DNA of 64,000 nt from Caldilineaceae bacterium (GTDB taxonomy: Bacteria; Chloroflexota; Anaerolineae; Caldilineales; Caldilineaceae). This document shows positions 21,273 through 60,967 of this stretch, one piece after another. Below the pieces are notes generated by a model. The model worked only from the letters and a program-made list of their open reading frames with translations. It searched no databases and was not told where the DNA came from. Both the position numbers and the translations under genes were made by a program. The stretch spans positions 1 through 64,000 of the forward strand of contig JAJDXQ010000014.1 of the NCBI GenBank assembly GCA_022823185.1, read 5' to 3'. Position 1 is the first letter of the stretch; each line of letters opens with the position of its first letter.

Positions 21273-21401
21273 GGTCAGATTTCGAGGGCGGCGGAGATGT
21301 CGGCGGTGATGTCCTGGGGGTCTTCGGCGCCGAGGGCGCGGCGGACGTGGCCGTCGGAGATGCCGACGGCGGCGCGCGGGGCGGGGGAGAGGGCGCGGTG
21401 G
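21273..21401 (-). pseudogene. Displaced 3'-end copy of the Cys/Met PLP-enzyme gene
   Basis: These 129 bp match 24033-24161 without gaps and with about five mismatches by eye. The match starts right at the stop codon (TCA on the plus strand, 21275-21277) and covers the last 40-odd codons, still in frame (ending ADISAALEI). Beyond 21401 the similarity ends abruptly. The piece has no start and cannot work alone. It lies on the far side of the LRR module from the intact gene. Confidence 0.9.
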
Positions 21402-21553
21402 GGGTTCGGGGTATTGTAACCATTTAGCCTATGTAACGAAAGAGGGCGAATGTGCGTTGGCTCTTGGTCGTTACAATCGGTTCAGATAAGAAGCCCGTAC
21501 GCGCCTTTCTTGTTCGCAAGGGCCCTGATCGGGAAGACGCCTTGCTTGATAGC

Positions 21554-22969
21554 CTAACCCGGTGTCGGTGTAGGCGTTGGTGTCGGAGTTGGCGTGGGTG
21601 TCGTTGTAGGCGTCGCTGTGGGCGTCGCTGTGGCCTCCCCGCAATACGTCAGGCCCAAGCTGGCCAGATCGGAATTGCTCACACTGCGCAACGACGCGGG
21701 AATACAACCGCTCAACCGATTGTTGGCGAGGTAGAGATGGGACAAGACTTGAAGGTCGCCAAGCGAACTGGGGACTGTTCCGGTCAGCCTGTTGTCGTTG
21801 AGGTACAGTTTGACAAGGGTTCGGTTGTTGCTCAGATCAGGAATCGAGCCGGTCAGCTTATTGTTGTTGAGGCGCAATTCCTGAAGACCTCGGAGAGGAC
21901 TCAGATTAGGAATGGTTCCGCTCAAAGTGTTGTTTTGGAGGTACACAAAAGTCAGACGTGTATAGGAACTCAGAGTCGGGAAAGAGCCGCTCAGTTTATT
22001 GTCATTGAGAAGCAACAATGTCAGCTTGGGTTTCGTCCCCAGACTTGGAATGGAGCCGCTCAGCTGGTTCTTGTAAAGAGACAATACTATGAGTTCTGTA
22101 TGGGAACTCAGACTGGGAATCGATCCGCTCAGCTTGTTTTCGCGCAAGTACAGATATTGCAGCTTGGTGAGGGAACTCAGACTCGGTATTGACCCGCTCA
22201 ACCGGTTTTGGCTGAGATTCAACCAGGTCAGATTTGTAAGGGAACTGAAACTCGGCACAGACCCGGTCAATTTGTTGTTCTGGAGATCCAAGTGTTGCAG
22301 TTCGGTAAGGGAACTCAAACTGGGGATCGTTCCGATCAGATTGTTGCCGTAAAAGCGCAATGCTGTGACGCGTCCGTTTTCGTCGGTGGTGACGCCATAC
22401 CATGTGCCTAACGGCTCCGCGCTCAACCAATTGTCGTTATTGGTCCAGTTGCCGCCGTCCATCGCATTGTAGAAGGCGACGAGCGCCGCCCTGTCTCTCG
22501 CCGGACTGGCATGCGTGGCGGTGGGCGTGATGGTCGGTGTTGCCGTGGCCCCCGGATCGGTTGTGGGCGTGATGGTCGCGTGTACATAGTCCGACCAGTC
22601 GCTTTCATCGCCGTAGGCGTTGATTGCACGGGCGGAGTAGAAGTAGGTTGTGCCGACCGTAGCGTCAGCGTGCGTGAAAGTCGTGCCCGTCAGGTTGTCG
22701 CCGCCGCTCTCCCACCAACCGTCGGCTCTGGTCCAGGCATACAGGTCATAGCTTGATGCGCCCTGAACAGCCGTCCAACTCAGGTCCACGCCGCTGCTGC
22801 TGGCCTGAGCCGTCAGCGTCGGCCTGGAAAGAGTGAATTCGGTCGATTGCGCCGCGGCCTGGTCTGTGGCTGAAAGAATGGCTGCGGCAGTGAACAGGGC
22901 CAGAGCCAGCCATACGCTCAGCCCGATGGCAAGAGTACAGGCATTTCGCTTTCTCAACATCGTTCGCAT
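21554..22969 (-). CDS. Exported FN3 plus leucine-rich-repeat protein with Thr/Pro tail
   Basis: A 471-residue protein with a signal peptide (residues 14-41). One FN3-like module follows (about 48-135), then a Thr/Pro linker. An LRR cap (DRAALVAFYNAMDGGNWTNNDNW) precedes nine or ten plant-type leucine-rich repeats of the form L..L.L..N.LSGSIPSLSSLT (about 205-445). The C-terminus is (TP)n. Plant-type LRRs in bacteria usually bind proteins or glycans at the cell surface. Base composition is clearly lower in GC than its neighbours, and the gene sits between the two copies of a duplicated gene end, so acquisition or transposition is likely. It shares the FN3 module with the proteins at 1-2475 and 12329-14110. 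Confidence 0.88.
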   Translation of the reverse strand: MRTMLRKRNACTLAIGLSVWLALALFTAAAILSATDQAAAQSTEFTLSRPTLTAQASSSGVDLSWTAVQGASSYDLYAWTRADGWWESGGDNLTGTTFTHADATVGTTYFYSARAINAYGDESDWSDYVHATITPTTDPGATATPTITPTATHASPARDRAALVAFYNAMDGGNWTNNDNWLSAEPLGTWYGVTTDENGRVTALRFYGNNLIGTIPSLSSLTELQHLDLQNNKLTGSVPSFSSLTNLTWLNLSQNRLSGSIPSLSSLTKLQYLYLRENKLSGSIPSLSSHTELIVLSLYKNQLSGSIPSLGTKPKLTLLLLNDNKLSGSFPTLSSYTRLTFVYLQNNTLSGTIPNLSPLRGLQELRLNNNKLTGSIPDLSNNRTLVKLYLNDNRLTGTVPSSLGDLQVLSHLYLANNRLSGCIPASLRSVSNSDLASLGLTYCGEATATPTATPTTTPTPTPTPTPTPTPG

Positions 22970-24034
22970 CCTTCAAGCTCGAGATGCGCTTTTGTGGCCG
23001 TGAACTCTAATTGGACTGTGAAACCGTCCCCTTTGGCAGGGTCTCCGCTGCCTTCCGATCTGGACCAAAAGGTATGTCACCCTGGCTATCGCTTCTGATG
23101 CCGGGATTGACATCCACTCTCAATCTTTTTCCAGCTCCTACTGCGATCCTTGGATGGCTTCTCCAGACATTTAAGCCAGCAGAGTGGCTCTGGGATTCTA
23201 GTACGTAGATAAAGACTAATTCAATCGATCTGTATATTTTCGGTCTTATTGTACAGTATGCAATCTCAAATAAAAAACAGCATTCGCATATTTGGATTCT
23301 TTGTATAATTTGGCTTTGTAGGGCCTACATGGCCATCTTGTGAACATTTCGGGGCCCAAACGCTTTCCTATACACTTAGGGTTTGAAACAGTCGGGGCAC
23401 ATGCCTGAATATGGGAAGAGTCATGATTGAGAGGACCAATTCGGGATTAGAGGCGCCGTAGTTCTTTGCCGACCGTTGCGTATGGACTTGGCAGGGAAGT
23501 CAAGGGCCTGTTTAACGGACTACCGATCGGGCACTCGGCTGCTTCACGAGTGGACAGCCTTCATGAATGCGCGCAGACGGTGCCAGGCAGCTCAGAGTGA
23601 ACGAGGAGGCGGCAAGTAAGCGCGGAGAGTGTCGCGTTCCCTGATGACGACGGGCCGCCTACGATGGACGGTGGCCCCTTGCCATTGGCTGACTCAAAGC
23701 GGAAGTTCAACTCTTCTTCTTTAGCTAATTCGATGTTTGGGATATCAGATGATGGGCCGCCGCAAATATGTCTGAGCCGGCGCGCGGTCATAGTAGGGGA
23801 TATCTGTGGCTGTCAGAGGGACTGCAGCATGGCCAGAGAGAATCAAGTTTGTGGGGTCTTGGGGAGGGAAGACAGTTCGAATCGAGCGTTGCAGGCGGCC
23901 AAACTTCAATTTGGATGAAGGGTACACTGGCTACGGTGCTGGTGTCAGAGGGCGTTGCCGGGGGAGAAGCTCCCCCGCGCAAGGGAAGCAGCCTGCGGCT
24001 GACCGCAGGACTGGAGTGCGCAGGACCGCAGTGG
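22970..24034. other. Lower-GC gene-free region inside the LRR module
   Basis: About 1.06 kb with no convincing gene; short frames at 23561-23927 have no signature. An AT-rich stretch at about 23210-23330 may hold the LRR gene promoter. It contrasts sharply with the surrounding high GC and may be decayed mobile DNA, but no transposase motif or terminal repeat could be recognised. Confidence 0.5.
23959..24008 (-). terminator. Two hairpins downstream of the PLP-enzyme gene
   Basis: An 8-bp stem CGGGGGAG/CTCCCCCG (23959-23977, 3-nt loop) and a 6-bp stem CTGCGG/CCGCAG (23993-24008) lie 27-76 bp past the stop at 24035. No T-tract. Confidence 0.35.
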
Positions 24035-25273
24035 TCAGATTTCGAGGGCGGCGGAGATGTCGGCGGTGATGTCCCGGGGGTCTTCGGCGCCGACGGCGAG
24101 GCGGACGAGGCCGTCGGAGATGCCGACGGCGGCGCGCTGGGCGGGGGAGAGGGCGCGGTGGGAGGCGTGGCTGGGGTAGAGGACGAGGGAGTAGACGTCG
24201 CCGACGGTTGTGGCCGGTTGGACCATTTGGAGGGCTTCGAGGAAGCGGAAGACTTCGGGCCGGCCGGCGTCTTTGAGCTCGAGGGCGACGACGGCGCCAT
24301 AGCCGCGCTGGCCGAAGAGCCGGGCGGCCAGCTGGTGTTGGGGATGATCGGGGAGGCCTGGGTAGCGGACGCGGGCAAGGGCGGGATGGCGGCTCAACTG
24401 TTCGGCGACAGCGACAGCGTTGCCGCACTGGCGCTCGACGCGCAGGGGCATGGTTTTGAGGCCGCGGTGAAGCAGCCAGGCTTCGTGGGGGCCGAGGTTG
24501 GCGCCGGTCTTTTTGAGAAAATCCCAGAAGGCGGGGCGGAGCTCGTTTCGGGCGACGACGACGCCGCCCAGGACATCGCCGTGGCCGCCGATATACTTGG
24601 TGGCGCTGTGAATGACGACGTCGGCTCCGTGGGCGAGGGGCCGGAAGAGCATGGGGGTGGCGAAGGTGTTGTCGACGAGCAGACGTGTGTTGTGGGCGCG
24701 GCAGAGCTGGGCAAGTCGGGGGATGTCTACGACTTTGAGGAGTGGATTGGAGATGGTCTCGACGACGAGGACGACGGGCGCCTCTTCAACGAGCATGCGC
24801 TCGACGGCATCAAGGTCGGTGGCGTCGACGAAGAGGCCCTTTGCGCCATATTGGGGCCAGAGGCTGTCGACGAGGGAGTAGGTGGCGCCGTAGCAGTCCT
24901 GGGCGGCGGCGACGGTTACGCCGGCCTGGACGCCGCAGGCAGCCATGGCGAGGTGGATTGCGGCCATGCCGCTGGCGGTGGCGAGCGCGAAGTGGTCTGC
25001 GGCCTGTGCGGGCATGTCGTGGCATTCGAGGTCGACGATGGCGTTTTCAAAGGCGGCGACGGTGGGGTTGCCGTAACGGCCGTAGACATAGAGGTCGGGG
25101 TCTCCGCCGAGGGCGCTGTCAAGGTGGGTGGAGTCCTCGTATACGTAGCCGATGCTGGGGATGATGCCGCTGACGACGGGCGCGGGGGTGGCGCTGGGGG
25201 CAGGCGGGGCATAGCGGCGTTCTTCGCCGCCATGGACGGCTTTGCTGTCTATTGATTTGGGCGTGAATGACAT
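24035..25273 (-). CDS. Cys/Met-metabolism PLP-dependent enzyme (cystathionine gamma-synthase/lyase family)
   Basis: A 412-residue fold-type I PLP enzyme. Landmarks are YGRYGNPTVAAFE (residues about 58-70), the ATASGMAAI phosphate-binding loop, the VETISNPLL and DNTFATP blocks, and the cofactor lysine in HSATKYIGGHGDVLGG. The family includes cystathionine gamma-synthase, cystathionine lyases and methionine gamma-lyase; sequence alone does not settle which. ATG 25273 starts the homologous region (MSFTPKSIDSKAVHGG); the longer in-frame extension to 25531 would overlap the MreB-like gene and looks like its shadow. The last 129 bp are duplicated at 21273-21401. Confidence 0.92.
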   Translation of the reverse strand: MSFTPKSIDSKAVHGGEERRYAPPAPSATPAPVVSGIIPSIGYVYEDSTHLDSALGGDPDLYVYGRYGNPTVAAFENAIVDLECHDMPAQAADHFALATASGMAAIHLAMAACGVQAGVTVAAAQDCYGATYSLVDSLWPQYGAKGLFVDATDLDAVERMLVEEAPVVLVVETISNPLLKVVDIPRLAQLCRAHNTRLLVDNTFATPMLFRPLAHGADVVIHSATKYIGGHGDVLGGVVVARNELRPAFWDFLKKTGANLGPHEAWLLHRGLKTMPLRVERQCGNAVAVAEQLSRHPALARVRYPGLPDHPQHQLAARLFGQRGYGAVVALELKDAGRPEVFRFLEALQMVQPATTVGDVYSLVLYPSHASHRALSPAQRAAVGISDGLVRLAVGAEDPRDITADISAALEI

Positions 25274-26506: not shown

Positions 26507-26701
26507 TCAGCGTTTTGTCCGTGCGTAGCTGGCGGCGCCGTACGAGCCGATAATCAGGCCGGCCAGGGAGGAGCCGTAGGCGAGGAAGCTGAGCAGGAAA
26601 CCGGCTTCGATGACTTTGATGACCATGGCGAAGGCGAGCAGAAAGCCGGCGAGGAGGAGGAAGAAGCCGTAGAGTATCAGATGAACCGGGGAGGTGGGCA
26701 T
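26507..26701 (-). CDS. Small two-helix membrane protein
   Basis: A 64-residue protein (67 if it starts at GTG 26710). Two hydrophobic segments are visible, residues about 8-30 (ILYGFFLLLAGFLLAFAMVIKVI) and 35-56 (FLLSFLAYGSSLAGLIIGSYGA), with a basic C-terminus (ARTKR). No known family. The heptamer repeat lies immediately upstream, so neither start has a ribosome site. It lies between the MreB-like gene and the oligopeptide transporter locus, on the same strand. Confidence 0.65.
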   Translation of the reverse strand: MPTSPVHLILYGFFLLLAGFLLAFAMVIKVIEAGFLLSFLAYGSSLAGLIIGSYGAASYARTKR

Positions 26702-26710
26702 GGGGGACAC

Positions 26711-26757
26711 CAGTGGATAGTGGGTAGTGGATGGTGGATGGTGAATAGTGGATAGTG
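26711..26757. repeat. AGTGGWY heptamer array
   Basis: Seven heptamers of the GTGGATA/GTGGGTA/GTGGATG/GTGAATA type lie between the small membrane protein and the OppF-type ATPase gene. This array is more degenerate than the others. Confidence 0.75.
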
Positions 26758-38117: not shown

Positions 38118-38388
38118 TCTTTAGACCCCCGTAATGGAAGCTACTGGTCGATTCACGGCGAATGAACCCTGGGTTCAGAATCGACAAACGGTGTTGAGCA
38201 TTTGAATGGAGAACATCGTCTGATGCGGCGCCAGTGTCAGCTGGGGCGGCGATACGATCCTGCGCGGATGGAGACGCCGCGCAGACTTCCGGTGAAGCAG
38301 AGACACTACGCCTATCCTACGGGTTGGGGAATATCAGCATGGTAGCATTCCCGTCTGTTGCTGTCAACACGGTGGCGGGAGGGACTGC

Positions 38389-38446
<58 letters not shown>

Positions 38447-38519
38447 CGGGGGCGGGGCTATGCTGCGGGGCAGCGATATGGGGGCGGGGAGAAGACGGAG
38501 CAAGGTGGCGGCTGGCTTT

Positions 38520-38579
38520 GGGAGATTTCGCTGAATGCTGCAGGCGTGTTCTTCTGGCAGGCCCGAGTCCGGGCTGCAC
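38520..38579. repeat. 60-bp dispersed repeat, copy 1 (left of vapBC)
   Basis: Starts GGGAGATTTCGCTGAATGCT and ends CCGGGCTGCAC. It matches 39685-39744 at 58 of 60 positions in the same orientation. A weaker relative lies at about 58041-58097. Confidence 0.85.
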
Positions 38580-38732: not shown

Positions 38733-39119
38733 TTATGCCGCTTCAATGTCGGTGCGGGCAAAGTCCTCCCCTTTGAATAGAAGCGGTTCACGGCTCGTTT
38801 GCGCGAGCGCGTAGACAAAGCAATCTCCAAAGTTCAACCCGGCTGGATGGTTGCCTTTCCCGAAGCGCCGCCAGGCACGTTGGGCGCTATCCGCTTGTTC
38901 GGCCGTAATGGGGACCAGTTCAATGGATGCCGTTTTCAGGAACCGATCCAGTTCTTGCCCAGCCGCAACACCCCCCCTGCTTTCGACAACCATCGCGGCT
39001 TCGAGCAACGTAGCCACCGAAATGAGCCGGGGCTGCGCCACGGCGATCGCCTCTTCATAGCGTGATGCATCTGGCTCTCCGAACAGAATGGCGAGGATGG
39101 CTGAAGTGTCGATAATCAC
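38733..39119 (-). CDS. vapC: VapC-type PIN-domain toxin
   Basis: A 128-residue PIN ribonuclease. The acidic catalytic set is Asp4 (MIIDTSAIL), Glu40 (ATLLEAAM), Asp99 (NFGDCFVYALA) and Asp119. VapC toxins cut tRNA or rRNA in the cytoplasm. Its start overlaps the antitoxin stop by 4 bp (ATGA), the normal antitoxin-first order. The pair lies between two direct 60-bp repeats. Confidence 0.93.
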   Translation of the reverse strand: MIIDTSAILAILFGEPDASRYEEAIAVAQPRLISVATLLEAAMVVESRGGVAAGQELDRFLKTASIELVPITAEQADSAQRAWRRFGKGNHPAGLNFGDCFVYALAQTSREPLLFKGEDFARTDIEAA

Positions 39120-39373
39120 TTCGGCAACCCTCGCTCATCGTACAGCACATCCCCGTGCTCGACAGCGGACGGGCCCGGCGCGAGCAGAGCGGCGCATCGC
39201 TGCCCTATGGCATGCAGTTCCTGCGCCAGCGCAGTGGCGTCCCTTCGGCGCCGCTCGCGTTCCAGGCGTTCGCGTAACGCAACTGTAACAGCGAAGGTCG
39301 TGGTTTCACCCGTCAACCGGGCCAGTTCGTCGGCCAGCCGGCAAGTCTCAGTGTCGTTGATATTCAGACTCAT
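39116..39373 (-). CDS. vapB: VapB-type antitoxin
   Basis: An 85-residue antitoxin. The N-terminus MSLNINDTETCRLADELARLTGETTTFAVTVALRERL matches Rv0623/PSK-type VapB antitoxins (ribbon-helix-helix DNA binding). The C-terminal tail would wrap around VapC. It presumably represses its own promoter, as is usual for this family. First gene of the pair. Confidence 0.9.
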   Translation of the reverse strand: MSLNINDTETCRLADELARLTGETTTFAVTVALRERLERERRRRDATALAQELHAIGQRCAALLAPGPSAVEHGDVLYDERGLPK

Positions 39374-39982
39374 CAGTTGCCTCCAAGTAAGTCAGGTTGC
39401 CCGCGGTCTACCCTACAACATCGCGACATCACTGGCAAAACCATTCCCCCCGAACTCACACACTGCCCCCTATCGCGCCATCATTTTCACCGTCACACTT
39501 CTTTAATGCGCCACAGAAAACGGTGACCTTTGCGCGCCCGCATACGATATCACTGCCGCGCCTGCCTGCCTGAATACCGAAAATCCCCCAGATCCTGCAG
39601 ATTCTGATTCAGCCGTACCCCCATTCGTGCATGAACCGCCCTTCCGGGCGCAGTCCAAAGTGGGTTGCGTTTCAGGCTGCCTCCGGGAGATTTCGCTGAA
39701 TGCTGCAGTCGTGTTCTTCTGGCAGGCCCGGGTCCGGGCTGCACGCGCGGGAACGGGGGCAGCGGGCGCCGGCACGGCGGGATTCGACGCCTCGTTCGCC
39801 AAGCCGTTATAATGCGTTGAGAAGTTCCGCAGGGGGAGGCGCGGGGTTGAAGGCGCAGCCTGCTGGCCGGATCCTCTTTCGGGCAGGATCCGGAGCGGGC
39901 GGTTGGCGGATCTTCTCCTAAGCGGTTCTTCCACCTTATTTCCAGGCACGAATTGCGGCGCAGGCGCGCCAAGGAGCTCACC
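39374..39982. other. Upstream region of vapB and of the DUF255 gene
   Basis: A divergent promoter region of about 600 bp that holds the second 60-bp repeat. A plus-strand TATAAT lies at 39808-39813 with no good -35 box. No gene is supported; two minus-strand frames across 39503-40014 are repeat-derived. Confidence 0.5.
39685..39744. repeat. 60-bp dispersed repeat, copy 2 (right of vapBC)
   Basis: Direct repeat of 38520-38579 with two mismatches; the two copies are 1,165 bp apart and enclose vapBC. Confidence 0.85.
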
Positions 39983-42052
<2,070 letters not shown>

Positions 42053-42148
42053 TGGTCAGTGGTCAGTAACTGCAGGGTTTGATGTGGCGTGGGCGAATTG
42101 GGTTTGGCTGGGACGTTGTATTGAAAGCGGGATATTTTGGGGGCGAGG

Positions 42149-50953: not shown

Positions 50954-52090
50954 TCAGTCGGTGGCCACGGTGAGGGAGCGCACGCGATCTTCGTCCCAGA
51001 CGGCGCCCCAGCCAGGGCCGTTGGGCGGGGCGATGCGGCCGTCTTCGATGAGGGGGGCGTTGAGGAGACCCCACGCCTCGCCCTCGGCGCGCAGGTCGCG
51101 GGGACCGTTTGCGCCGAAGAGTTCGAAAAAGTCGGTGTTGTCGATGCAGCAGCCGGCTGCGGCATGCCCGATTCCGTAGAGATGGCCGGGACCGTGCAGT
51201 TCGACGTTTGCGCCGTGCAGCTCGGCGAAGTGGGCCAGTTTAAGGACCAGAGTGAGGCCATGGCCTACGCGTGCGCGCAGCCGGTCTGTTGCGCCCTGGA
51301 TGAGCCACTGGGCGGAAAGGTCCACGTCGTGGCAGAGCCGTTCGGTGGCCATGATGGGGATGGTGAGCGTGCGGCAGAGCTCCTGGTACTGGTTCATCTT
51401 CTGTTCGTGCATCGGCTCTTCTAGCCAGACGTAGTCCAACTCCTCCATTGCTTTTCCCACTTCGATGGCTTCGCGCAGGGTATAAGAGCAGACGGGATCG
51501 TTGAGCAGGTCGTAACTGTCGCCTACGTTTTTGCGAATTTCGGTGAGCAGGGGGATATCGCCCTTGCCGCCCCGGTAGGTGTGCAGTTTGTAGGCGTTTA
51601 CGCCGAAGGCGCGGCCGCGCTCGATGTGATCGAGATAGCCCTGTGGGGTCAGCTCGTGGTCGGTGAGGTAGACGGGCAGGCGGTCGCGCACGCGGCCGAT
51701 GAGGGCGTAGACGGGCAGGCCGGCGGCTTTGCCGGCGATGTCCCAGAGGCAGTTGTCGAAGTCACCGAACCAGCCGGGCTGCTGGTAGACCCAGCGCGTG
51801 CCTTTTTGCAGCATCTGGAAGAGCCGTTCGCGGGCGAAGGGGCTTTCGCCGATGGCGTGGGTCTTGAGGATGTCGAGCTGGGCCCTGGTGATGGAGGCGG
51901 GGGCGACGCGGCCGGTGATGCCCTGGTCGGTTTCCACGTCGAGAATCTGCATCTGCATGGGTGTGGTGGAGGACAGTGGGGTGTGCGTGTACTGAATGCG
52001 GCGCAGGCCGGCGGTCTGTTTCAGCCGGTAGTCGGGTTGGGTGAGGGTTGGGTGTTGGAGTGTGCGGAGTTTGACGTCGGTGATTTTCAT
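50954..52090 (-). CDS. Enolase-superfamily sugar-acid dehydratase/racemase (mandelate racemase/MLE group), copy 1
   Basis: A 378-residue protein with the N-terminal capping domain and TIM barrel of the superfamily. NAYKLHTYRGG carries the base Lys. Metal ligands lie in LLNDPVCS (Asp), WLEEPMHE (Glu) and MATERLCHD (Glu). Near the end HGPGHLYGIGHAAAGC replaces the usual second-base region. It probably dehydrates an acid sugar. Roughly 80% identical by eye to the next gene upstream, from which it is separated by 195 bp including a heptamer repeat just before its start. Confidence 0.92.
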   Translation of the reverse strand: MKITDVKLRTLQHPTLTQPDYRLKQTAGLRRIQYTHTPLSSTTPMQMQILDVETDQGITGRVAPASITRAQLDILKTHAIGESPFARERLFQMLQKGTRWVYQQPGWFGDFDNCLWDIAGKAAGLPVYALIGRVRDRLPVYLTDHELTPQGYLDHIERGRAFGVNAYKLHTYRGGKGDIPLLTEIRKNVGDSYDLLNDPVCSYTLREAIEVGKAMEELDYVWLEEPMHEQKMNQYQELCRTLTIPIMATERLCHDVDLSAQWLIQGATDRLRARVGHGLTLVLKLAHFAELHGANVELHGPGHLYGIGHAAAGCCIDNTDFFELFGANGPRDLRAEGEAWGLLNAPLIEDGRIAPPNGPGWGAVWDEDRVRSLTVATD

Positions 52091-52093
52091 AAC

Positions 52094-52121
52094 GGCAGTG
52101 GTCAGTGGTCAGTGGTCAGTG
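52094..52121. repeat. AGTGGWY heptamer array between the two enolase-superfamily genes
   Basis: Three AGTGGTC units and one AGTGAG end, preceded by AACGGC. It starts only 4 bp before the gene start at 52090, replacing any ribosome site. Confidence 0.8.
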
Positions 52122-52285
52122 AGGCGCTGGGTAGGCCCGGAGTTGGCGCCGTTTTAGCCCGCGCATGCGGGCATTGCTGGCGAACGCGCAGATTGCTCGA
52201 GAGGTCTGGTTAAACCATCTTGGCCCTTTGTTGAGCCTAGTGCTTTCACTAACGCGTGCCGGTAAATCCCCACAGTTCACTTCAT

Positions 52286-53422
52286 TCAGTCGGTGGCGAC
52301 GGTGAGGGAGCGGATGCGATCTTCGTCCCAGGCGGCGCCCCAGCCGGGGCCGTCGGGGGGCGCGATTTGGCCGTCTTCGATCAGGGGGGCGTTGAGCAGG
52401 CCCCACTCTTCGCCTTCGGCGCGCAGGCGCTTGGCGTCGGCCTGGCCGAGAAGCTCGTAGAAGTCGGTGTTGTCGATGCAGCAGCCGGTATGGGCGTGGA
52501 CGAGCCCGTAGAGTCCGCCGGGCCCGTTCAGCTCGACGTTGGCGCCATGGAGCTCGGCGAAGTGGGCGAGTTTGAGGATCTGGGTGAGGCCGAAGGTGGC
52601 GCGGGCGCGCAGACGGTCTGTTGCGCCCTGGATGAGCCACTGGGCGGTGAGGTCCATGTCGTACATGAGACGCTCGGTGGCCATGATGGGGATGGTAAGC
52701 GTGCGGCAGAGTTCCTGGTACTGGTTCATCTTCTGCTCGTGCATGGGCTCTTCGAGCCAGATGTAGTCGAGCTCTTCCATGGCGCGGCCGACTTCGATGG
52801 CTTCGCGCAGGTTGTATGAGCAGACGGGGTCGTTGAGCAGGTCGTAGTCGTCGCCGACAGCTTTGCGCACGTCGGTCAGTATGGGTATGTCGGCCTTGCC
52901 GCCTTTGTAGGTGTGCAGCTTGTAGGCGTTGACGCCGAAGGCGCGGCCGGCCTCGATGTGGTCGAGGTAGCCCTGCAGGTCCATGTCGCCGCCGGTGAGG
53001 TAGACGGGCAGGCGGTCGCGCACGCGGCCGATGAGGGCGTAGACGGGCAGGCCGGCGGCTTTGCCGGCGATGTCCCAGAGACAGTTGTCGAATTCGCCGA
53101 ACCAGCCGGGGTCCTGGTAGACCCAGCGGGTGCCCTTGTGCAGCATCTGAAAGAGGCGTTCGCGGGCGAAGGGGCTTTCGCCGATGGCGTGGGTCTTGAG
53201 GATGTCGAGCTGATATTTGTTGATGGTGGTGGGAGCGATGCGGCCGGTGATGCCTTCGTCGGTTTCCACTTCGAGGATGTGTGCTTGCATGGGCGCGTCG
53301 ATGGGCCGTCCGGTGTGCGTGTACTGAATGCGGCGGAGGCCGGGCACCTGGATGAGGCGGTGGCGGCTCTGGGTGAGGGTTGGGTGTTGGAGGGTGTGGA
53401 GTTTGACGTCGGTGATTTTCAT
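52286..53422 (-). CDS. Enolase-superfamily sugar-acid dehydratase/racemase, copy 2 (tandem paralogue)
   Basis: A 378-residue protein of exactly the same length as its neighbour, with the same active-site blocks (NAYKLHTYKGG, LLNDPVCS, WLEEPMHE, MATERLMYD). Differences cluster in the first 60 residues and around residues 280-320 (VELNGPGGLYGLVHAHTGC against VELHGPGHLYGIGHAAAGC). These are near the substrate-capping loops, so the two copies may differ in substrate. GGAG lies before ATG 53422, which makes this the likely ancestral, properly translated copy. Confidence 0.92.
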   Translation of the reverse strand: MKITDVKLHTLQHPTLTQSRHRLIQVPGLRRIQYTHTGRPIDAPMQAHILEVETDEGITGRIAPTTINKYQLDILKTHAIGESPFARERLFQMLHKGTRWVYQDPGWFGEFDNCLWDIAGKAAGLPVYALIGRVRDRLPVYLTGGDMDLQGYLDHIEAGRAFGVNAYKLHTYKGGKADIPILTDVRKAVGDDYDLLNDPVCSYNLREAIEVGRAMEELDYIWLEEPMHEQKMNQYQELCRTLTIPIMATERLMYDMDLTAQWLIQGATDRLRARATFGLTQILKLAHFAELHGANVELNGPGGLYGLVHAHTGCCIDNTDFYELLGQADAKRLRAEGEEWGLLNAPLIEDGQIAPPDGPGWGAAWDEDRIRSLTVATD

Positions 53423-53708: not shown

Positions 53709-54323
53709 TCAACTGGGAGAAACGGAAAGATGCTCTGAAATCAGCTTGCTGAAATAAAGAGAATTACTCCGGTATATTTTCAGAAAACCTGCAGGCGTGT
53801 TGTGCAGTCCCCCTTGGGACTGAATATAGAAGGGATAATGACGTGTTTTCTTGATCTCTCTGGCTGAAGAGATGTCAACAATGCTTACATGCCGGTACTG
53901 GTAGTCATCAAGAAATACTTTCGATTGCCAGAACATTTTTCCTATGCAATTGCAGTAACTCATAAAGCAGGCCGCACCCTTCAATTGCTGCTCAACATGG
54001 GTTCGCGTTTTGGAGTTCCCTGCTTGTGTTTCAATACAAATAATCCACTTTCGTATCCCGTCGATGGCAACAATTACAAAATCAGCCCTCTTTCGCTCCC
54101 CTTTTGAACCATTGAAGATAGTGAGAGGATTTTCAAAGTCCTCTGCTCTGATAACGACTGAGTCATGAGGTATACCTTTGATTTCTACAGTTGTTTTGGC
54201 CTGTTTATCTGTTAGTTTGACAGAGGGTCTGCCCGGACTAGGGTGCAACGGAATCTGGGCAGTGGATACAAGCATTTTCCTCAACATTGCAATCTCATTC
54301 ACAGACCCTACTCCGCCCCCCAC
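53709..54323 (-). CDS. Putative PD-(D/E)XK-like nuclease partner of the AAA ATPase
   Basis: A 204-residue protein with no firm family. A pattern Asp81 (RKRADFVIVAIDG), then Glu98-x-Gln100 (WIICIETQ), then a helix with EQQLKGAACFM is what a PD-(D/E)XK nuclease core with an ExQ variant would look like. GTG 54323 overlaps the ATPase stop by 16 bp; ATG 54287 is an alternative that gives no overlap. GC is lower than in the core genes. The tight link to an AAA ATPase suggests a two-gene effector system such as anti-phage defence (inference). Nuclease identity is tentative. Confidence 0.6.
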   Translation of the reverse strand: MGGGVGSVNEIAMLRKMLVSTAQIPLHPSPGRPSVKLTDKQAKTTVEIKGIPHDSVVIRAEDFENPLTIFNGSKGERKRADFVIVAIDGIRKWIICIETQAGNSKTRTHVEQQLKGAACFMSYCNCIGKMFWQSKVFLDDYQYRHVSIVDISSAREIKKTRHYPFYIQSQGGLHNTPAGFLKIYRSNSLYFSKLISEHLSVSPS

Positions 54324-55708
54324 ACAATTTCTTCAAGAATGTTATTCATTTGGTCGATTGTTTTGTCGAAGCTGCTGGCTTCAATCCCAAGCTGTGGATC
54401 AATATCGGCCGGAACAAGGGTATGGCCTCTTCTTCGTCTCTTCTGACCTTTTTCCAGCGGCATAAGGTCTTCTTGGGCCATGTACACTCTAACCTGATTG
54501 GACGATATCAGATCGTCCTCCTGATAGCCGTTGGCACGGGCGATTCTCTTCAGATGGGGCTTATCGTGGTTTAACATGATGAGCGTGTTAAGCTCTCTTA
54601 TGATGTAGTCGCTATGGGTGGTTATGAAAACCTTTACGCCCACATTCACCAAGCGAGCTAAGAGTCTGGCAATACGACGCTGATTCTCTGGGTGTAGGTT
54701 TAATTCGGGTTCATCCACCATCAATATTTGACCCGGGGCTGCGACATGACGTAGATAAAAGCCAATGTCCAAAAGGGAACGCGCCGCGCTGGAACTCTCG
54801 TCCATTGTCAACTTAAGTCGTTGGCGGTCAGGTCTAAAGTAGATCGAATCGTCACTCCCTGCGATGTATTCGCCTCCAATGATGTCGGCGAAGTCATTCA
54901 AAATGCGGGGATGATCTTTTGCAATGAAGCTGTCTTCCTTGGCAACGTCTTCAAGTCTCCGTATAAAATCGACATTCACTTTGACCGGCAGTGGGTAATC
55001 CTGGTAGGACTTGAACAATAGATCCAATGGGTCGATATTTCTGTCTGTCCGACTCATTTCTTCGAGGAGTCGGTTGCGAGCGAAATTCAGTTCCTTGCGA
55101 AAAATCGCCGCGCCGGTGCGCTCTGCGCTGGCGATAAATGGATGGGGAAAAAATCTTTCAAAGAGCAGTTCTAAAATGTGATCAGATAGCATTTCCTGGA
55201 CTATGTGCACCGGTGGTCCTGGGCTTCCTTCACCCAACAACAGCGATATCACCAGTTCCTTTTCGCCTTCGGCCTTGGAAAGAGAGAGAATATCATCTTC
55301 GCCGAAGCGAATTGTACGCTGAAGTATTTCTCCAACCACTGCCGCCGCTGGTACTGTCCCAACATCTACTTGAAAGACCGTGTTCTTAAAGTGGTTCGCT
55401 CTTGACGCGAAAATCCTTGGCAATTGCTCCGTGTAGTCCTGGGAACCCCGCTTCAAGATATTGCCGGAATTCCTGACAAAAGATGTAATATCGATCCGCG
55501 TGACGCCGTCCTTAAACAAGGCTTCAATTGCTTGACTGGAAATTTGGACGCGCAGGAAGTTTTTCCAACTCCACAAGTAACCGAATAAGGCATAGGTTGC
55601 ATAGGTCTTGCCGGTATTGTTTTTGCCACAGATGATGGTCATATCTCCTAACGAAAAATCTGCCTGCCTTAGAATCCCAAGGTTTTTCAAGCTAACCCTT
55701 ATCGCCAC
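54308..55708 (-). CDS. OLD/ABC-type AAA ATPase (AAA_15/AAA_21 group)
   Basis: A 466-residue ATPase. Walker A is GKNNTGKT (residues 28-35). A long helical middle region follows. Near the C-terminal third are the signature-like DESSSAARSLLDIGFYL, Walker B ILMVDEPELNLHPE, and FITTHSDYIIRELN with the switch His. Such SMC/OLD-like ATPases pair with nucleases or toxins in several phage-defence systems. GTG 55708 was chosen as the start because GGAGGT lies exactly 6 nt before it and family members begin near this point (IRVSLKNLG); the longer TTG start at 55804 overlaps a decayed upstream frame. It is translated together with the downstream nuclease-like gene. Confidence 0.85.
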   Translation of the reverse strand: MAIRVSLKNLGILRQADFSLGDMTIICGKNNTGKTYATYALFGYLWSWKNFLRVQISSQAIEALFKDGVTRIDITSFVRNSGNILKRGSQDYTEQLPRIFASRANHFKNTVFQVDVGTVPAAAVVGEILQRTIRFGEDDILSLSKAEGEKELVISLLLGEGSPGPPVHIVQEMLSDHILELLFERFFPHPFIASAERTGAAIFRKELNFARNRLLEEMSRTDRNIDPLDLLFKSYQDYPLPVKVNVDFIRRLEDVAKEDSFIAKDHPRILNDFADIIGGEYIAGSDDSIYFRPDRQRLKLTMDESSSAARSLLDIGFYLRHVAAPGQILMVDEPELNLHPENQRRIARLLARLVNVGVKVFITTHSDYIIRELNTLIMLNHDKPHLKRIARANGYQEDDLISSNQVRVYMAQEDLMPLEKGQKRRRRGHTLVPADIDPQLGIEASSFDKTIDQMNNILEEIVWGAE

Positions 55709-55727
55709 ACCACCACCTCCGCTATCG

Positions 55728-56012
55728 TCATTTCGGCGCACTTCCCAAGATGTCCCCGACTCTGGCCAAGACTTTTCGTCCGCGTCTTGTGTAATCGTCG
55801 ACAAGGCCGGTCATTTCCTGTTCGTAGCACTTCATGGTACGGATGTGCGGCCTCTCGCTCTTGAAGATAACGTTGCCCAGCCCTTGCTCCCCCTTTTTGC
55901 TGAATCAGTGCTTTGCAAGCCGAAGGTTCCACTCTGGCTTTAAGAATTGAATTCTTCGGACCTATAGCCCCTCTAGTCGGTCCAAAGCCGGGGTGAGAAA
56001 CGTGAAGTTCAC
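55728..56012 (-). pseudogene. Decayed small gene with two in-frame stops upstream of the ATPase
   Basis: GTG 56012 has an excellent ribosome site (AGAGAGGAGCGATACT). It opens a frame of 95 codons (MNFTFLTPALDRLEGL...) that is interrupted by TAG and TGA and ends with LARVGDILGSAPK at 55728, 19 bp before the ATPase start. The segments between stops read like protein, so this was probably the first gene of the ATPase operon. The last part alone could be read as a 35-residue ORF from ATG 55835. No family recognised. Confidence 0.5.
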
Positions 56013-56276: not shown

Positions 56277-56389
56277 TCGTTTATCACATTTCTGTTCAAT
56301 GACATTGAAGAATGAGAGGATTGAAGATTCTTCAGAAGAAACCCTTTGTCAGCGCTGGAACTCCAGTTTACCAGTGTCTGAAGCCACGC

Positions 56390-56734
56390 TCAAACTGTCT
56401 CCCGTCTTCCTTTCATCACCCACAGCGTCCACAGGACGGTGGGGACGACGCTGATGGCGGCCAGGAACCAGATGATGGAGGAGATGGTGAGACTGGTGTC
56501 GAGGGCGGCGCCGACGAGGCTGGAGGCGAGGGCGCTGCCGAGATAGAAGAACATGAAGTCGCTGGCGAAGACGCGGCCGCGTATTTCGTCGGGGACCATT
56601 TGGAGGAGCAGGTGGGTTGAGAAGACCCAGATAACGCCGCTGCCGATGGAGCGCACGAAGGAGCCCAGCGGAGAACTTCGGGCCTCGATTGAGATGGTGA
56701 ACGCCTGTTGCTCCTTCGCGGTCAGGGGAACCAT
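56390..56734 (-). pseudogene. Chimeric ORF: foreign 22-residue start fused to the C-terminus of an MFS exporter
   Basis: Bases 56390-56668 copy the 3' end of the MFS gene at 59699-59977 with no gaps and about 13 mismatches in 279. The copy starts at the stop codon and keeps the reading frame. Upstream of 56668 the frame continues into unrelated sequence (MVPLTAKEQQAFTISIEARS), making a 114-residue fusion with an AGGA-type site before it. It would carry only the last two or three MFS helices and cannot transport. It is the far-side partner of the intact MFS gene across the 3-kb module. Confidence 0.85.
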
Positions 56735-56805
56735 GTGAATTTCGCTAATCAGATCCTGTTAATGGGAATAGGCGTGTGCGAGGAGTAAGGTAGCGCACCC
56801 GATTG

Positions 56806-57240
56806 CTATATCTTCTCGCCCTCCTGTTTCCGTCCTCTCTCCCGAATAATTTGAACGACGGAATCTCCTGTGCTCACTTCTCTGCCCTCTTCCCAGATTC
56901 TCTCGCCTGTATTGAGTGTTTCATATTCAACTAACCATGAAGGGGGCATGAGGAAACGAGAGAAACGACCGAGGGCGCGAGAGCCATCGATCCTCGGAGT
57001 CTTGGTCTCGCGGTAGGTAGATGCCACTGCCAGTCTTTCCTGGACATCAGTAACCCGTACTCTGACCTTGGGAAGCTCTATGAGACCTAGCATTTCCTCC
57101 GTATCAGGATCCTTTATTTCCGCTTGCTCGATGACATCAAAGTCCATACCAACAGCGACTCCATTTGCAGAGCCAACGTTTAGCGCGATGTCATGTGAAC
57201 TAAGCACTTGCGCGACCTTGCCGCGGATTGGTTCTGTCAT
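56806..57240 (-). CDS. Small beta-rich protein with FlgT C-terminal-like motif
   Basis: A 144-residue protein. The first 70 residues (RGKVAQVLSSHDIALNVGSANGVAVGMDFDVIE) fit the G-x-V...VxINxGxxxGVxxGMxF pattern seen in FlgT_C-like domains, a small beta-barrel. The rest (RVRVTDVQERLAVASTY...) may extend it. No flagellar genes are near, so the role must differ. Its start overlaps the stop of the upstream membrane-protein gene by 4 bp (ATGA), so the two form a pair. Function unknown. Confidence 0.6.
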   Translation of the reverse strand: MTEPIRGKVAQVLSSHDIALNVGSANGVAVGMDFDVIEQAEIKDPDTEEMLGLIELPKVRVRVTDVQERLAVASTYRETKTPRIDGSRALGRFSRFLMPPSWLVEYETLNTGERIWEEGREVSTGDSVVQIIRERGRKQEGEKI

Positions 57241-57728
57241 CGTCTCTCCTCCGTTGCATTGACAGCGGAGAGTTTTCTGTCCAACTCTTTCACTTCATCG
57301 GGCACGATATCTTTCCAGTCTTCCAGAGCATCGTCTGCTGTAACCAGTTTCCAAAAGACAATTCCTTTGAGCTCGGCAAGTATCACTTTGTCGCTGTCAA
57401 GAGACTCAGCATTCCGTGATAGCTCGATAATGCGCCCTACTTCAGAGATACTGCGATAGAGTGAGAGAAGGCGCCTGAATGCGGATCGGGCGTGTGGCTT
57501 GATTATCTCTCTTGCCGCCTCGCGAACTGACAGGCGAGCAGAATAAAACGAAACGGCAATGCCTATCAAGGCGACACAAATCTGCAGAAAGTAGCTCTCC
57601 AGATTTGTGTAGTTTCGCGTATTTGCCACATGCCAAAAGGCGCCCAAAACCCCTAAGGAAACAATGACGAGCAACGATGGCCAAATTAACCGGTGTAGAA
57701 TCGACCTGAGAGGTTCGACAGTTTTCAT
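57237..57728 (-). CDS. Two-helix membrane protein with cytoplasmic helical domain
   Basis: A 163-residue protein. Membrane segments lie at about 14-34 (LIWPSLLVIVSLGVLGAFWHV) and 46-68 (YFLQICVALIGIAVSFYSARL). A charged helical region of about 95 residues follows and ends ELDRKLSAVNATEERR. No family recognised. It is the first gene of a two-gene unit with the FlgT_C-like protein. An extended -10 promoter with a palindrome lies about 45 bp upstream. Confidence 0.65.
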   Translation of the reverse strand: MKTVEPLRSILHRLIWPSLLVIVSLGVLGAFWHVANTRNYTNLESYFLQICVALIGIAVSFYSARLSVREAAREIIKPHARSAFRRLLSLYRSISEVGRIIELSRNAESLDSDKVILAELKGIVFWKLVTADDALEDWKDIVPDEVKELDRKLSAVNATEERR

Positions 57729-58377
57729 TTTTCACCAGTGTATCAAAATGAATGAGCGATTTCAACCCCAATTATAGCACATTTGTGCAGGCATGGGTCT
57801 GACATGAATATCATGGCAACGTCTCCCGTGCAAACACGATGCTCAGACGGATGCCGTTGTCGGTGGGTGGCGGAGCATGTACACGCCGCGGGGCAGGCAC
57901 ATGGCGGAACGACTGTAAGGGCGCTGATGGGAAATGTAAACTTCGTGGGGCGACCATATTGAGGGTTACGGGGCAGGCGCACGCCGCGGGGCGGGCGTAT
58001 GGGGGCGGGGCAAAATGGGGGCGAGTTTCGGGCTATCTCGTGGAGATTACATTGAGTCCTGCAGCCGGCTTCTCCTGGCGGCCTCAAGGCTAAACTGCGC
58101 CCCGAGCCGTGGTGGTTAGCGGGCAGAGAGTGGGGCGCGAAGATGTCGGGGTTACGCTGAGGCATTTCGGGGAAGCAGGTTGGGTCGGTCTCAGTCTTGA
58201 TGCGGATGAAAACCAAGCCATTGCCTGGCAGGGTTCTTTTGACTTCATCGCACCGCTAGCGCACGGGACGATGGCGCTTACCCGTTTCTATCCGGCGCGG
58301 CAGCTTTATGGTCTGGATCCAGCGGATTGACTGGTCGAGATTCCTGCGGAGAAAGACCAGGGTAGAGATCTTCGGAG
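57729..58377. other. Gene-free region inside the accessory module
   Basis: About 650 bp. It contains the promoter of the membrane-protein pair and a diverged relative of the 60-bp repeat at about 58041-58097, preceded by ATGGGGGCGGGG as in copy 1 near 38479. No gene is supported, and GC is high and G-rich unlike the flanking genes. Confidence 0.5.
57771..57788 (-). promoter_or_regulatory. Extended -10 promoter overlapping a GCACA-TT-TGTGC palindrome
   Basis: On the minus strand it reads GCACAAATGTGCTATAAT: a consensus TGCTATAAT extended -10 whose upstream side is a palindrome (57777-57788). The same arrangement stands at 59659-59676. It drives the gene starting at 57728. Confidence 0.6.
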
Positions 58378-58914
58378 TCAAACCAGCAGCTTCTTATTCG
58401 CGGTCAAAATAGGGACTGCTGAACCTTTGAAGTCGCCGTCATGCGTAATCAGTGTCAGCCCTTCTGTTTTGCATAACTCCGTAATGACTTGATCATTGAA
58501 ATCAAAGCCACCTGCCGCGTACTCGTCCAGCAGATCATTGATCTCCAGTCTAGCGAACCCGCTTTCTACTGGAGAACAGTGTTGCATAACCAGCTCTGCA
58601 TCAGAAGCGATGGTTGGAGCGATCCGTTTGAACTGTGTGCTGTTGCGATACCTTTTGAAGTCGATATTCGATCTTGAGTTTCTCCACATAATTCTGGCAT
58701 AGCTGTTAATGAATTCTGAAACGATAAGGACATCTATATGGATGTGGCTCTTCGCGATAAGTATGCGCTTGAACGCCTGGGAGTAGGTCTTCACACGGTT
58801 CCGGACGGGCGACTGCTGCGGGCCATGCAGGAACAACCAGATATTCGCATCAAAAAACAGTCTATCTTCAGAACGAAAATTGTAGTTGCTCACCGACAGT
58901 GCTCTAATCGTCAT
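58378..58914 (-). CDS. PIN-domain putative ribonuclease
   Basis: A 178-residue protein. PIN-type acidic residues stand in order: Asp22 (RLFFDANIWLFL), Glu67 (IVSEFIN), Asp141 (FDFNDQVITELC) and Asp159/Asp161 (LITHDGDF). It is larger than VapC toxins, with an extra helical middle (residues about 75-125). ATG 58914 has GGAGG at 6 nt and overlaps the STAS-like gene by 11 bp, so translation is coupled. It is the last gene of the kinase/STAS-like/PIN operon and the likely effector (inference). Confidence 0.82.
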   Translation of the reverse strand: MTIRALSVSNYNFRSEDRLFFDANIWLFLHGPQQSPVRNRVKTYSQAFKRILIAKSHIHIDVLIVSEFINSYARIMWRNSRSNIDFKRYRNSTQFKRIAPTIASDAELVMQHCSPVESGFARLEINDLLDEYAAGGFDFNDQVITELCKTEGLTLITHDGDFKGSAVPILTANKKLLV

Positions 58915-59266
58915 CGTCGTCCTCCAGCACTTCCCTAACCGCTTGATCAAACCTGTGGCGATCCTGAAAGTACAACTTGGCTGTTTCGACGACGCGCTTC
59001 AGCAGTGCCGCATCTTGGGGTTCTATGTCCTCGACCTTCAACATTGACCGAACTTGGTCTTCAGTAAAGGTCCCATAAAGTTGACCGATCGCCGCATTAA
59101 GAAAGGCGGAAGTCATCGTTGAAACGTTGAGAAATGAGAGTGCAACGCGTCGATCCCTTCCAAAGGCGACGGCAAGGCGATCATGTACTTTCTGCCCATC
59201 GTCCGAGGCGACGCATAGAGGGCTGCCCACAACCTCATAGACCGAAACTTTCGTGTCTTTCTGCAT
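58904..59266 (-). CDS. STAS-like protein (DUF4325 type)
   Basis: A 120-residue protein. The core VALSFLNVSTMTSAFLNAAIGQLYG matches the STAS-like DUF4325 pattern (lDF.gv....+FlneaigrL). The C-terminus is strongly acidic (VLEDDDDD), encoded partly in the overlap with the PIN gene. STAS-like proteins are usually partners of GHKL anti-sigma-type kinases; the decayed kinase frame lies 9 bp upstream with a GAGGG site between. Likely role: phospho-switched binding partner (inference). Confidence 0.78.
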   Translation of the reverse strand: MQKDTKVSVYEVVGSPLCVASDDGQKVHDRLAVAFGRDRRVALSFLNVSTMTSAFLNAAIGQLYGTFTEDQVRSMLKVEDIEPQDAALLKRVVETAKLYFQDRHRFDQAVREVLEDDDDD

Positions 59267-59275
59267 TCCGTTCCC

Positions 59276-59645: not shown

Positions 59646-59658
59646 TCACACCCGAATG

Positions 59659-59676
59659 AGTATAGCACACATGTGC
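59659..59676 (-). promoter_or_regulatory. Extended -10 promoter overlapping a GCACA-CA-TGTGC palindrome
   Basis: On the minus strand it reads GCACATGTGTGCTATACT: an extended -10 (TGCTATACT) abutting a palindrome at 59665-59676. It is nearly identical in layout to 57771-57788 and drives the kinase/STAS/PIN operon. It lies only about 20 bp from the stop of the MFS gene, so it is close to the module boundary. Confidence 0.6.
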
Positions 59677-59698
59677 AAGAAACTAGAGTGCGGGCAAC

Positions 59699-60967
59699 TC
59701 AGACAACTTCCCGTCTTCCTTTCATCACCCACAGCGTCCAAAGCACGGTTGGGACGACGCTGATGGCGGCCAAGAACCAGATGATGGAGGAGATGGTGAG
59801 ACTGGTGTCGAGGGCGGCGCCGACGAGGCTGGAGGCGAGGGCGCTGCCGAGGTAGAAGAACATGAAGTCGCTGGCGAAGACGCGGCCGCGTATTTCGTCG
59901 GGGACCATTTGGAGGAGCAGGTGGGTTGAGAAGACCCAGATGATGCCGCTGCCGATGGAGCGCACGAAGGAGCCCAACAGGACGATCGGGAGGCTCAGGA
60001 GAGGGGCTGTCACCATGATGCCAGCGATCGCGATTACATAGCCGTATGCTATCCCTTCTTTGAGCGAGCGGGGATCGTCTCCTGTCAGTTTGCGTGCCAG
60101 AATGGGGCCGAGGCCGGAGCCGACGCCGGTGAGGCCGAACATGAGGCCCATGCTGATGCCGCCGCCCTGGCCGACGATAAAGACCTGCTGGGCGATCGCA
60201 ACCTGGATTACCTGGAAGGCGGTTGCGAGGAAGAGCGCCATGGACGCTTTCTGGAGTGCGACGACGAGGACGTCGAGGTGGGCGCGCAGATAGCGGAGAC
60301 CGTTGAAGTACTGACGCACAGCCGCGGCGACGGTTTTGTCGGCGGCGGCGGATGCGAGTTTGGCGGGCATGCGGACCTGCGCGAGCAGGGCGGCTGAGAG
60401 CAGGAAGGTGAAGGTGTCGAGGACGAAGGCTGGATACATGCCAAAGATGCCGGAGAAGAGTCCGCCGAGGGCAGCGCCGAGGGCAAGCATTACGGACCAG
60501 GTGGCGGAGCTGAGGGCGTTGACCGCGCCGAGCTCGCGTGGGTTGGCGATGTCGGGCAGGATGGCGGTATGGGCGGGGTCGAAGAATCCGGTCATCGCCA
60601 TCTGGACGGCTGTCAGAGTGTACAGGATCCACACGTCGCCGGGATCGCGCACGAGGAGGAAGGCGAGGACGACGGCGGCGCGGATGAGGTCGGTTGCAAT
60701 GAGGATGTGCTTTCGGTTGTAGCGGTCGGCCGCGACGCCGGCGATTGGGCTGACTAGGAAGGGCGCGAGCATACGCACGACGAAGAGTGAGCCGACGGCC
60801 AGGCCGGATTGGGTGAGCATGCCTACGAGGGCGGCGGAGGCGACGAGGTTGAACCAGTCGCCCAGCAGGCTTACGATCTGGCCGAACCAGAGGTAGCGGA
60901 AGTTGCGGTTGTCGCGGAGGAGGTCGGTGTAGCTGACGGCGGTCTGCGTCGTGGTATCTGCGGTCAT
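59699..60967 (-). CDS. MFS transporter, exporter-like (copy A)
   Basis: A 422-residue major-facilitator protein with 10-12 membrane segments. The N-terminal block NRNFRYLWFGQIVSLLGDWFNLVA and the loop VADRYNRKHILIATD match the enterobactin-exporter/macrolide-efflux-like group (MFS_3). The substrate is not predictable. The next gene upstream (88 bp) is a close paralogue, and a third copy of only its 3' end exists at 56390-56668. The stop codon at 59699 is the boundary of the inserted module. Confidence 0.92.
   Translation of the reverse strand: MTADTTTQTAVSYTDLLRDNRNFRYLWFGQIVSLLGDWFNLVASAALVGMLTQSGLAVGSLFVVRMLAPFLVSPIAGVAADRYNRKHILIATDLIRAAVVLAFLLVRDPGDVWILYTLTAVQMAMTGFFDPAHTAILPDIANPRELGAVNALSSATWSVMLALGAALGGLFSGIFGMYPAFVLDTFTFLLSAALLAQVRMPAKLASAAADKTVAAAVRQYFNGLRYLRAHLDVLVVALQKASMALFLATAFQVIQVAIAQQVFIVGQGGGISMGLMFGLTGVGSGLGPILARKLTGDDPRSLKEGIAYGYVIAIAGIMVTAPLLSLPIVLLGSFVRSIGSGIIWVFSTHLLLQMVPDEIRGRVFASDFMFFYLGSALASSLVGAALDTSLTISSIIWFLAAISVVPTVLWTLWVMKGRREVV

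Follow-up and report, generated by a model that had tools for sequence, protein, structure and literature searches.

Accessory modules bracketed by duplicated gene ends in a Caldilineaceae genome

The sequence examined here (the window) consists of the first 64 kb of a 96-kb contig, JAJDXQ010000014.1, from a Caldilineaceae bacterium whose genome comprises 5.17 Mb on 46 contigs. This genome, labeled G000, was compared with 16 relatives of the same genus (G001-G016). The window carries three accessory modules that lie between direct repeats: one with a leucine-rich repeat (LRR) gene follows the metabolic gene CGS, one with PIN and STAS-like genes follows the MFS transporter gene M1, and the third is a vapBC toxin-antitoxin pair. 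All three repeat pairs had been predicted from the sequence and do exist, with limits slightly longer than first noted (133, 279 and 70 bp, at 95, 96 and 93% identity, respectively). The CGS and M1 repeats start at the stop codon, and both orphan copies lie downstream of their own gene, as the original prediction held.

Modules at the ends of CGS and M1

The features of the CGS locus are as follows.

24035..25273, minus strand: CGS, Cys/Met metabolism PLP-dependent enzyme (Pfam PF01053, E 4.4e-106), conserved in the genus; the intact anchor gene
24030..24162, minus strand: CGS end repeat, copy attached to the gene (133 bp, 95% identical to the orphan)
21403..24029: inserted segment of 2.63 kb, missing at the syntenic site of relatives
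21554..22969, minus strand: cargo gene for a secreted-type fn3/LRR-repeat protein (Pfam LRR_4 2.5e-26; fn3 weak)
21270..21402, minus strand: orphan CGS end, joined to the ancestral downstream flank, which matches G013
20694-21098: Rid gene, next after the orphan CGS end

CGS is read on the minus strand with its stop at 24035, and the first 5 nt of the repeat lie beyond the stop. In G013, which is 98% identical over the CGS and MreB genes, the sole CGS end continues into the flank of the G000 orphan, and the single CGS end of G007 is likewise continuous with that flank. Nine of the 11 relatives having at least 1.5 kb of downstream sequence have CGS adjoining the Rid/S1 region without the module (the count leaves out G002, with a 1.08-kb flank and no Rid match, G016, with almost none, and G001, G003 and G005). 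The exceptions are G008 and G011, where CGS is not beside Rid/S1; the DNA found there in G011 resembles an insertion sequence (IS). Because CGS stands beside Rid/S1 without the module in these nine relatives, the 2.63-kb LRR segment is a derived insertion that was accompanied by duplication of the CGS end. The flank after the intact CGS is REP-like, differs from that of the relatives and is present elsewhere in the G000 genome. The orphan end has changes that are absent from the gene ends of the four relatives aligned with it, which fits the expectation for a silent fragment.

The M1 locus is arranged as follows.

61056..62324, minus strand: M2, tandem MFS paralogue upstream of M1 (69% protein identity)
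59699..60967, minus strand: M1, MFS transporter gene (Pfam MFS_1 2e-33); the intact anchor gene
59698..59976, minus strand: M1 end repeat, copy attached to the gene (279 bp, 96% identical to the orphan), followed by context A
58904..59266, minus strand: STAS-like DUF4325 gene, cargo A
58378..58950, minus strand: PIN-domain gene, cargo A
56806..57728, minus strand: two small genes, cargo D, in a segment that lies directly beside M1 in G001, G003 and G006
56389..56667, minus strand: orphan M1 end, joined to the context-B flank, the same flank that follows M1 in G002, G011 and G015
54308-55804 and 53709-54323, minus strand: two-gene homologue of a PDC-M47 / PD-T4-4-like phage-defense candidate, beyond the orphan

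The module between the two M1 ends had been described as kinase/STAS/PIN. Its PIN and STAS-like (DUF4325) genes are indeed there, but no kinase was recognized and the other small genes are without clear families. Close homologues of M1 come from metagenome genomes named Caldilineaceae (Chloroflexota). We compared 14 M1 loci, from G000 and 13 relatives (G004, G010 and G012 were left out; G007 is counted, its contig stopping 400 bp past M1). The M1 end is a hotspot: orphan C-terminal pieces of the gene lie downstream in five of the 14, with differing cargo; they span residues 331-422 in G000, 381-422 in G013, 389-422 in G014, 390-422 in G005, and both 347-370 and 372-419 in G015.

Four contexts follow the M1 gene. 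Context A, the PIN/STAS region (69-97% identity), is found in G000, G008, G009, G014 and G016. Context B is a short flank that follows M1 in G002 and G011, where it leads to an open reading frame (ORF) resembling, by eye, the SLFN_AlbA_2 gene of G014; it also follows the intact M1 of G015 (a 552-bp alignment across the stop, 81%). Context C, an fn3 gene, is found in G013 and G005, and context D, corresponding to the segment at window 56800-57834, in G001, G003 and G006. The G000 gene is followed by context A and its orphan by context B, and in each of the five genomes that carry an M1 orphan, gene and orphan stand in different contexts (the G015 orphan being placed in context A from a short motif only). 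The last codons of M1 vary in part with the contexts: RRETV (G011, G015 and the G000 orphan), KREAV (G002) and RRELV (the G014 orphan) occur with context B, RREVV (G000, G008 and G016) and RREVA (G009) with context A, and the M1 ends of contexts C and D are distinct. Over the last 12 nt, the G000 gene resembles G008 and the orphan resembles G011.

Defense-type genes are found at several of these loci. The ATPase beyond the M1 orphan is a homologue of PDC-M47A / PD-T4-4_A, and PDC-M47/PD-T4-4-like genes stand at the M1 locus of G000 and G005, the second gene of G005 being only a partial ORF; a type III restriction-modification-like pair is found at the M1 locus of G015 only. A palindrome-like TGCACATGTGTGC / GCACATTTGTGC motif, perhaps an operator, occurs at window 57770-57790 and 59650-59680, near the cargo D and cargo A genes, and also after M1 in the context-A genomes. 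Further along the window, a tandem pair of 378-aa genes (50954-52090 and 52286-53422, minus strand) is 84-89% identical over long blocks, and G011 apparently has three copies of this gene.

Gene-end scars outside the window

A direct-repeat scan of 1.256 Mb of G000, the window included (at least 60 bp, at least 85% identity, spacing of 200 bp to 12 kb; blastn E 1e-8, low-complexity filter on), returned 14 pairs, three of which are those of the window. A wider scan covered 2.06 Mb of three genomes (the 1.256 Mb of G000 and 0.4 Mb each of G011 and G015), in which 1,405 genes (879 + 526) were searched for partial copies; all gene-based counts rest on gene calls from a hexamer model. At the protein level, 20 rows of partial copies were found no more than 12 kb away, none on the opposite strand. 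Merged by hand, they amount to 11 C-terminal, three internal and one N-terminal piece downstream, several of the C-terminal pieces being tandem paralogues or part of a larger duplication, and to one N-terminal piece and one internally deleted paralogue upstream. The DNA-level search gave 27 rows, paralogues included, with none inverted: the 3' end is copied downstream in eight and upstream in two, the 5' end upstream in three and downstream in one, and 13 are internal (the 3'-end class by definition needs an edge near or past the stop). The 3' bias is clear but not absolute; two 5' fragments of G011 run counter to it, one lying upstream at G011:270418 (792 bp, 92%) and the other downstream at G011:22196 (ImmA-like/DUF4411 pair).

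Seven of the nine gene-end scars with DNA support have their edge within 20 nt of the stop.

CGS and M1, in the window: edge within 20 nt
Racemase gene, C6:115240: edge within 20 nt
Cas4-like gene, C5:264164: edge within 20 nt, two short pieces
thrS and yqeC of G011: edge within 20 nt
G015:178579: edge within 20 nt, 63 bp
FAH gene, C5:106154, with BrnT/BrnA as cargo: edge 62 nt past the stop
znuB of G011: edge 70 nt past the stop

The racemase scar came from the protein-level search and was then aligned; it is not among the 27 DNA-level rows. Repeat lengths vary (133, 279, 126, 172 and about 80-100 bp). The list of stop-codon scars leaves out tandem or truncated paralogues (C20:179146, C28:89231, G015:21241 and G011:204258), C5:231293, which has no DNA similarity, the internal pieces G011:55052 and G011:205242, the M2 row, which concerns the same orphan as M1, znuB of G011 as an operon-scale duplication, the fn3 repeats of C28:1840, the paralogue rows G011:241994 and G011:194480, and the repeat-protein rows G015:34458. 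Random orientation or position of such duplications had been named in advance as evidence against the pattern. None is inverted and most are 3' ends with the orphan downstream, but some 5'-end and internal rows are present as well. The pattern itself recurs outside the window at unrelated genes with the same polarity, alongside a few 5'-end cases. Toxin-type cargo may be enriched: of 145 small genes (60-175 aa) in five stretches holding 920 genes, three matched Pfam PIN and two PemK, among the listed families, which are those with at least two members.

For several of these scars, relatives retain the site without the insertion. At the racemase gene, G002, G006, G007 and G010 have a single gene end continuous with the flank of the G000 orphan. 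The insertion, whose cargo includes a PIN gene, is common to G000 and G008 (gene copy and orphan), and the corresponding stretch of G013 shows at least the orphan. At yqeC, G009, G000 and G008 have a single end joined to the flank of the orphan of G011, in which the insert is 7.3 kb long and contains ankyrin and DUF2339 genes and dispersed IS-like sequence. CGS, racemase and yqeC therefore each have relatives with an empty site that holds one copy of the duplicated target. From the empty sites it is clear that duplication affected the gene end and left the host gene in place, in line with the earlier proposal that the host gene is left unharmed. At thrS, the neighborhood thrS-infC-rpmI is split by a Cache-domain gene in G011 (G011:C1:192197-198622) and several relatives, and thrS adjoins the infC side in G002 and G007.

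The same sites bear on two other explanations. One is that a whole gene was duplicated in tandem and most of the second copy later replaced or deleted. The MFS genes M1 and M2 do form a tandem array and the scan did find truncated tandem paralogues (C20:179146, G015:21241). However, the relatives have one gene and no cargo at CGS, racemase and yqeC, and duplication alone does not bring new DNA; moreover, the orphan M1 end has a different context from the gene. We regard such remnants as a very unlikely source of the modules. The second explanation is that misassembled metagenome bins joined two strain haplotypes. The named relatives are metagenome-assembled genomes and only one genome shows the CGS insertion, but G011 and G015, which each form a single contig, have gene-end orphans too, and the racemase scar is shared by G000, G008 and, as far as its orphan end goes, G013. 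Such an artifact is extremely improbable.

The vapBC module and other intergenic repeats

The third module of the window is laid out as follows.

38510..38579: vapBC repeat, left copy (70 bp, 93% identity)
38733-39119, minus strand: VapC (PIN)
39116-39373, minus strand: VapB-like antitoxin (PF07704)
39675..39744: vapBC repeat, right copy

The vapBC pair is intergenic, as had been noted. Its repeat has two copies in G000 at E <= 0.001, and a weak third copy (66%) lies at window 58031-58100. The original prediction brought all three modules under one rule. This stands for CGS/LRR and M1, which are at gene ends, but not for vapBC, which is bracketed by intergenic sequence, and a rule common to the three was dropped. 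G013 has the vapBC module with both repeat copies. In G008 there is a single 70-bp repeat, with the left flank of the left copy and the right flank of the right copy, and no vapBC; in more distant relatives, no copy of the repeat is found among the matches listed.

A different history would be that the modules are ancestral and were lost from relatives by deletion between the repeats. It is possible for vapBC, since the one 70-bp copy of G008 lies between the outer flanks of both copies and more distant relatives show no copy among the listed matches. Applied to CGS, it would need loss in nine relatives ranging from G013 (98%) to G004, G010 and G012 (77-79%), with the module then kept in G000 alone, and the racemase site is empty in the four relatives named above. 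As an account of the modules in general, ancestry followed by loss is highly improbable.

Other intergenic pairs are of mixed character. A HicB-bearing pair (G000:C34:40860-40938 / 42043-42121, locus L145) has a complete copy of a dispersed ~200-bp repeat on one side and an incomplete copy on the other; this repeat has many copies in G012, and G015 and G001 have single-copy sites that lack the pair. In the case of a nuclease gene, the gene itself is apparently ancestral, and what is new is just the piece duplicated upstream; a pair with a membrane-protein gene adjoins a dispersed repeat, and the one at C8:264484 consists of a REP-like repeat. At L145:1180-1443, a HicA-like reading was discarded, as it has no Pfam match. 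A composite transposon was also rejected for the window, where no IS is found at both ends and the repeats are gene ends or two-copy intergenic sequence. Short tandem arrays of the GTGGTCAGTGG type are found at window 4349-9606, 26694-26742, 38371-38440, 42019-42067 and 52079-52127; such arrays are scattered between genes across the genus genomes too, sometimes at contig ends.

A possible mechanism and its relation to known systems

Gene and orphan have the gene end in common but not the flanks, and no donor molecule was found. The CGS and M1 modules are probably, on balance, explained by one-sided homologous recombination at the gene end with an imprecise second junction. Incoming DNA carrying the same gene end would recombine by homology with the resident gene end, and its other end would be joined by an imprecise, non-homologous junction inside the gene. 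As a result, the module would stand right after the stop codon, with the last ~130 or ~280 bp of the gene repeated on its far side. The donor may have been a relative whose gene copy already had the cargo, or a circle with the gene end and cargo, and the joining may have been done by a single crossover or by homology-facilitated illegitimate recombination. 3' ends might prevail since an insertion after the stop does not disrupt the gene, and the fragment that it leaves is silent. Unrelated anchor genes and differing repeat lengths argue for general homology rather than one att site; together with the exclusively direct orientation, these features fit general recombination on one side of the insert and imprecise joining on the opposite side.

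Relics of integrative elements, with a site-specific recombinase that is in trans or lost and targets the 3' ends of protein genes, would leave a similar picture. Such an element would carry a mimic of the gene end, which would keep the gene complete while its original end moved downstream. Islands targeted to tRNA genes have the same gene-end geometry as the modules here; the edges do lie at the stop codon, and the displaced ends at M1 come with different cargo. Against this, the target genes are unrelated and no common sequence is visible at the eight junctions, compared by eye only. The scanned cargo proteins, which cover the window modules and other loci but not all cargo ORFs of the relatives, matched no integrase or resolvase family; only IS-type pieces were seen (beside the Cas4-like gene, in the yqeC insert, on the G001 contig and after CGS of G011). 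The original prediction stated that no recombinase is encoded in the window; this applies to the 20 proteins checked, those predicted for the three modules among them, which gave no recombinase-family match. We consider integrative relics unlikely.

Several observations weigh against one-sided recombination. The model has most difficulty with the sharp edge at the stop codon; with seven of nine edges within 20 nt it is tighter than random intergenic breakpoints would suggest, although the 3'-end class by its definition selects edges near or past the stop. The donor haplotype, CGS followed by the LRR module, is not among the matches listed for the 16 genus relatives, in five of which the far side of CGS is not visible. 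At M1, the linkage of end to context is partial, as G014 pairs the RRETV end with context A, and over its last 36 nt the G000 orphan shares 78% identity with G011 and 81% with G008. Both G000 copies also share two bases found in none of the 13 relatives, which implies close-kin haplotypes (a same-species donor) or gene conversion. Finally, eight relatives have the thrS cargo and none of them a listed orphan, which occurs only in G011; a simple one-step insertion therefore does not account for thrS. A further reading is gene-end-targeted uptake of small selfish and defense modules, aimed at stop codons and with no encoded recombinase. Insertion would give the host gene a new end and push the old one downstream, and repetition would stack modules with fossil gene ends between them. 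We hold this to be improbable.

How toxin-antitoxin, PIN and defense modules spread without mobility genes is an open question on which the scars bear. Together with the empty sites, gene-end scars form a readable record: they put events in order and reveal the side at which homology did the joining, and any genome can be searched for them. At a hotspot like M1, where orphan ends separate one cargo from the next, the order of arrival would become readable. If one-sided recombination is the mechanism, toxin and defense genes could settle without breaking a host gene.

The closest parallels are as follows. Restriction-modification systems insert with long, variable target duplications on the order of 100 bp (PMC3874152, PMC3031569, PMC1643837). 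Likewise, the modules here have no recognized mobility gene, are flanked by variable direct repeats of ~100 bp and are seen against relatives. Unlike in the restriction-modification cases as described there, the duplicated target is repeatedly a 3' gene end starting at the stop codon, a single locus can have different cargos separated by displaced ends, and the cargo consists of PIN, HicA, BrnT/BrnA, LRR, ankyrin or Cache genes. In the window it is LRR, PIN/DUF4325 and VapBC rather than restriction-modification, so the modules work like long-target-duplication insertions without being members of that class. In an E. coli screen for homology-facilitated illegitimate recombination, 56 of 60 Lac- clones had part of the lacZ end duplicated (109-950 bp in the 14 sequenced), which was explained by trimming, recircularization and a single crossover (PMC3240628). 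There too, part of the 3' end of a gene is duplicated around inserted DNA, but the system described is laboratory plasmid integration detected in Lac- clones, whereas the genes here remain intact and the events are deduced by comparing genomes. With long target duplication and gene-end duplication of 109-950 bp by single crossover already published, the special gene-end-capturing mechanism originally suggested is not needed.

Type VI secretion effector loci and Rhs genes undergo sequential displacement that leaves orphan 3' ends, for which homology-facilitated illegitimate recombination has been proposed (PMC5361080). They resemble the present loci in that a new 3' module stands beside a conserved anchor with old pieces orphaned downstream, and differ in that the anchors here are ordinary metabolic or transport genes whose ends are nearly unchanged while only the neighboring cargo changes. 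Hotspots of horizontal transfer without mobile elements, where exchange occurs via recombination in flanking core genes (PMC5635113), recall the M1 locus in the fast gene turnover beside a conserved gene with no integrase seen; the double homologous exchange described there would leave no gene-end duplicate. Among the papers listed in searches that combined partial duplication with toxin-antitoxin modules, gene clusters or islands, none concerned a stop-codon-anchored case, which is not proof of absence. Relative to known long-target-duplication insertion, the new features are the anchoring at stop codons, cargo of the toxin type, and gene ends that are displaced and stacked.

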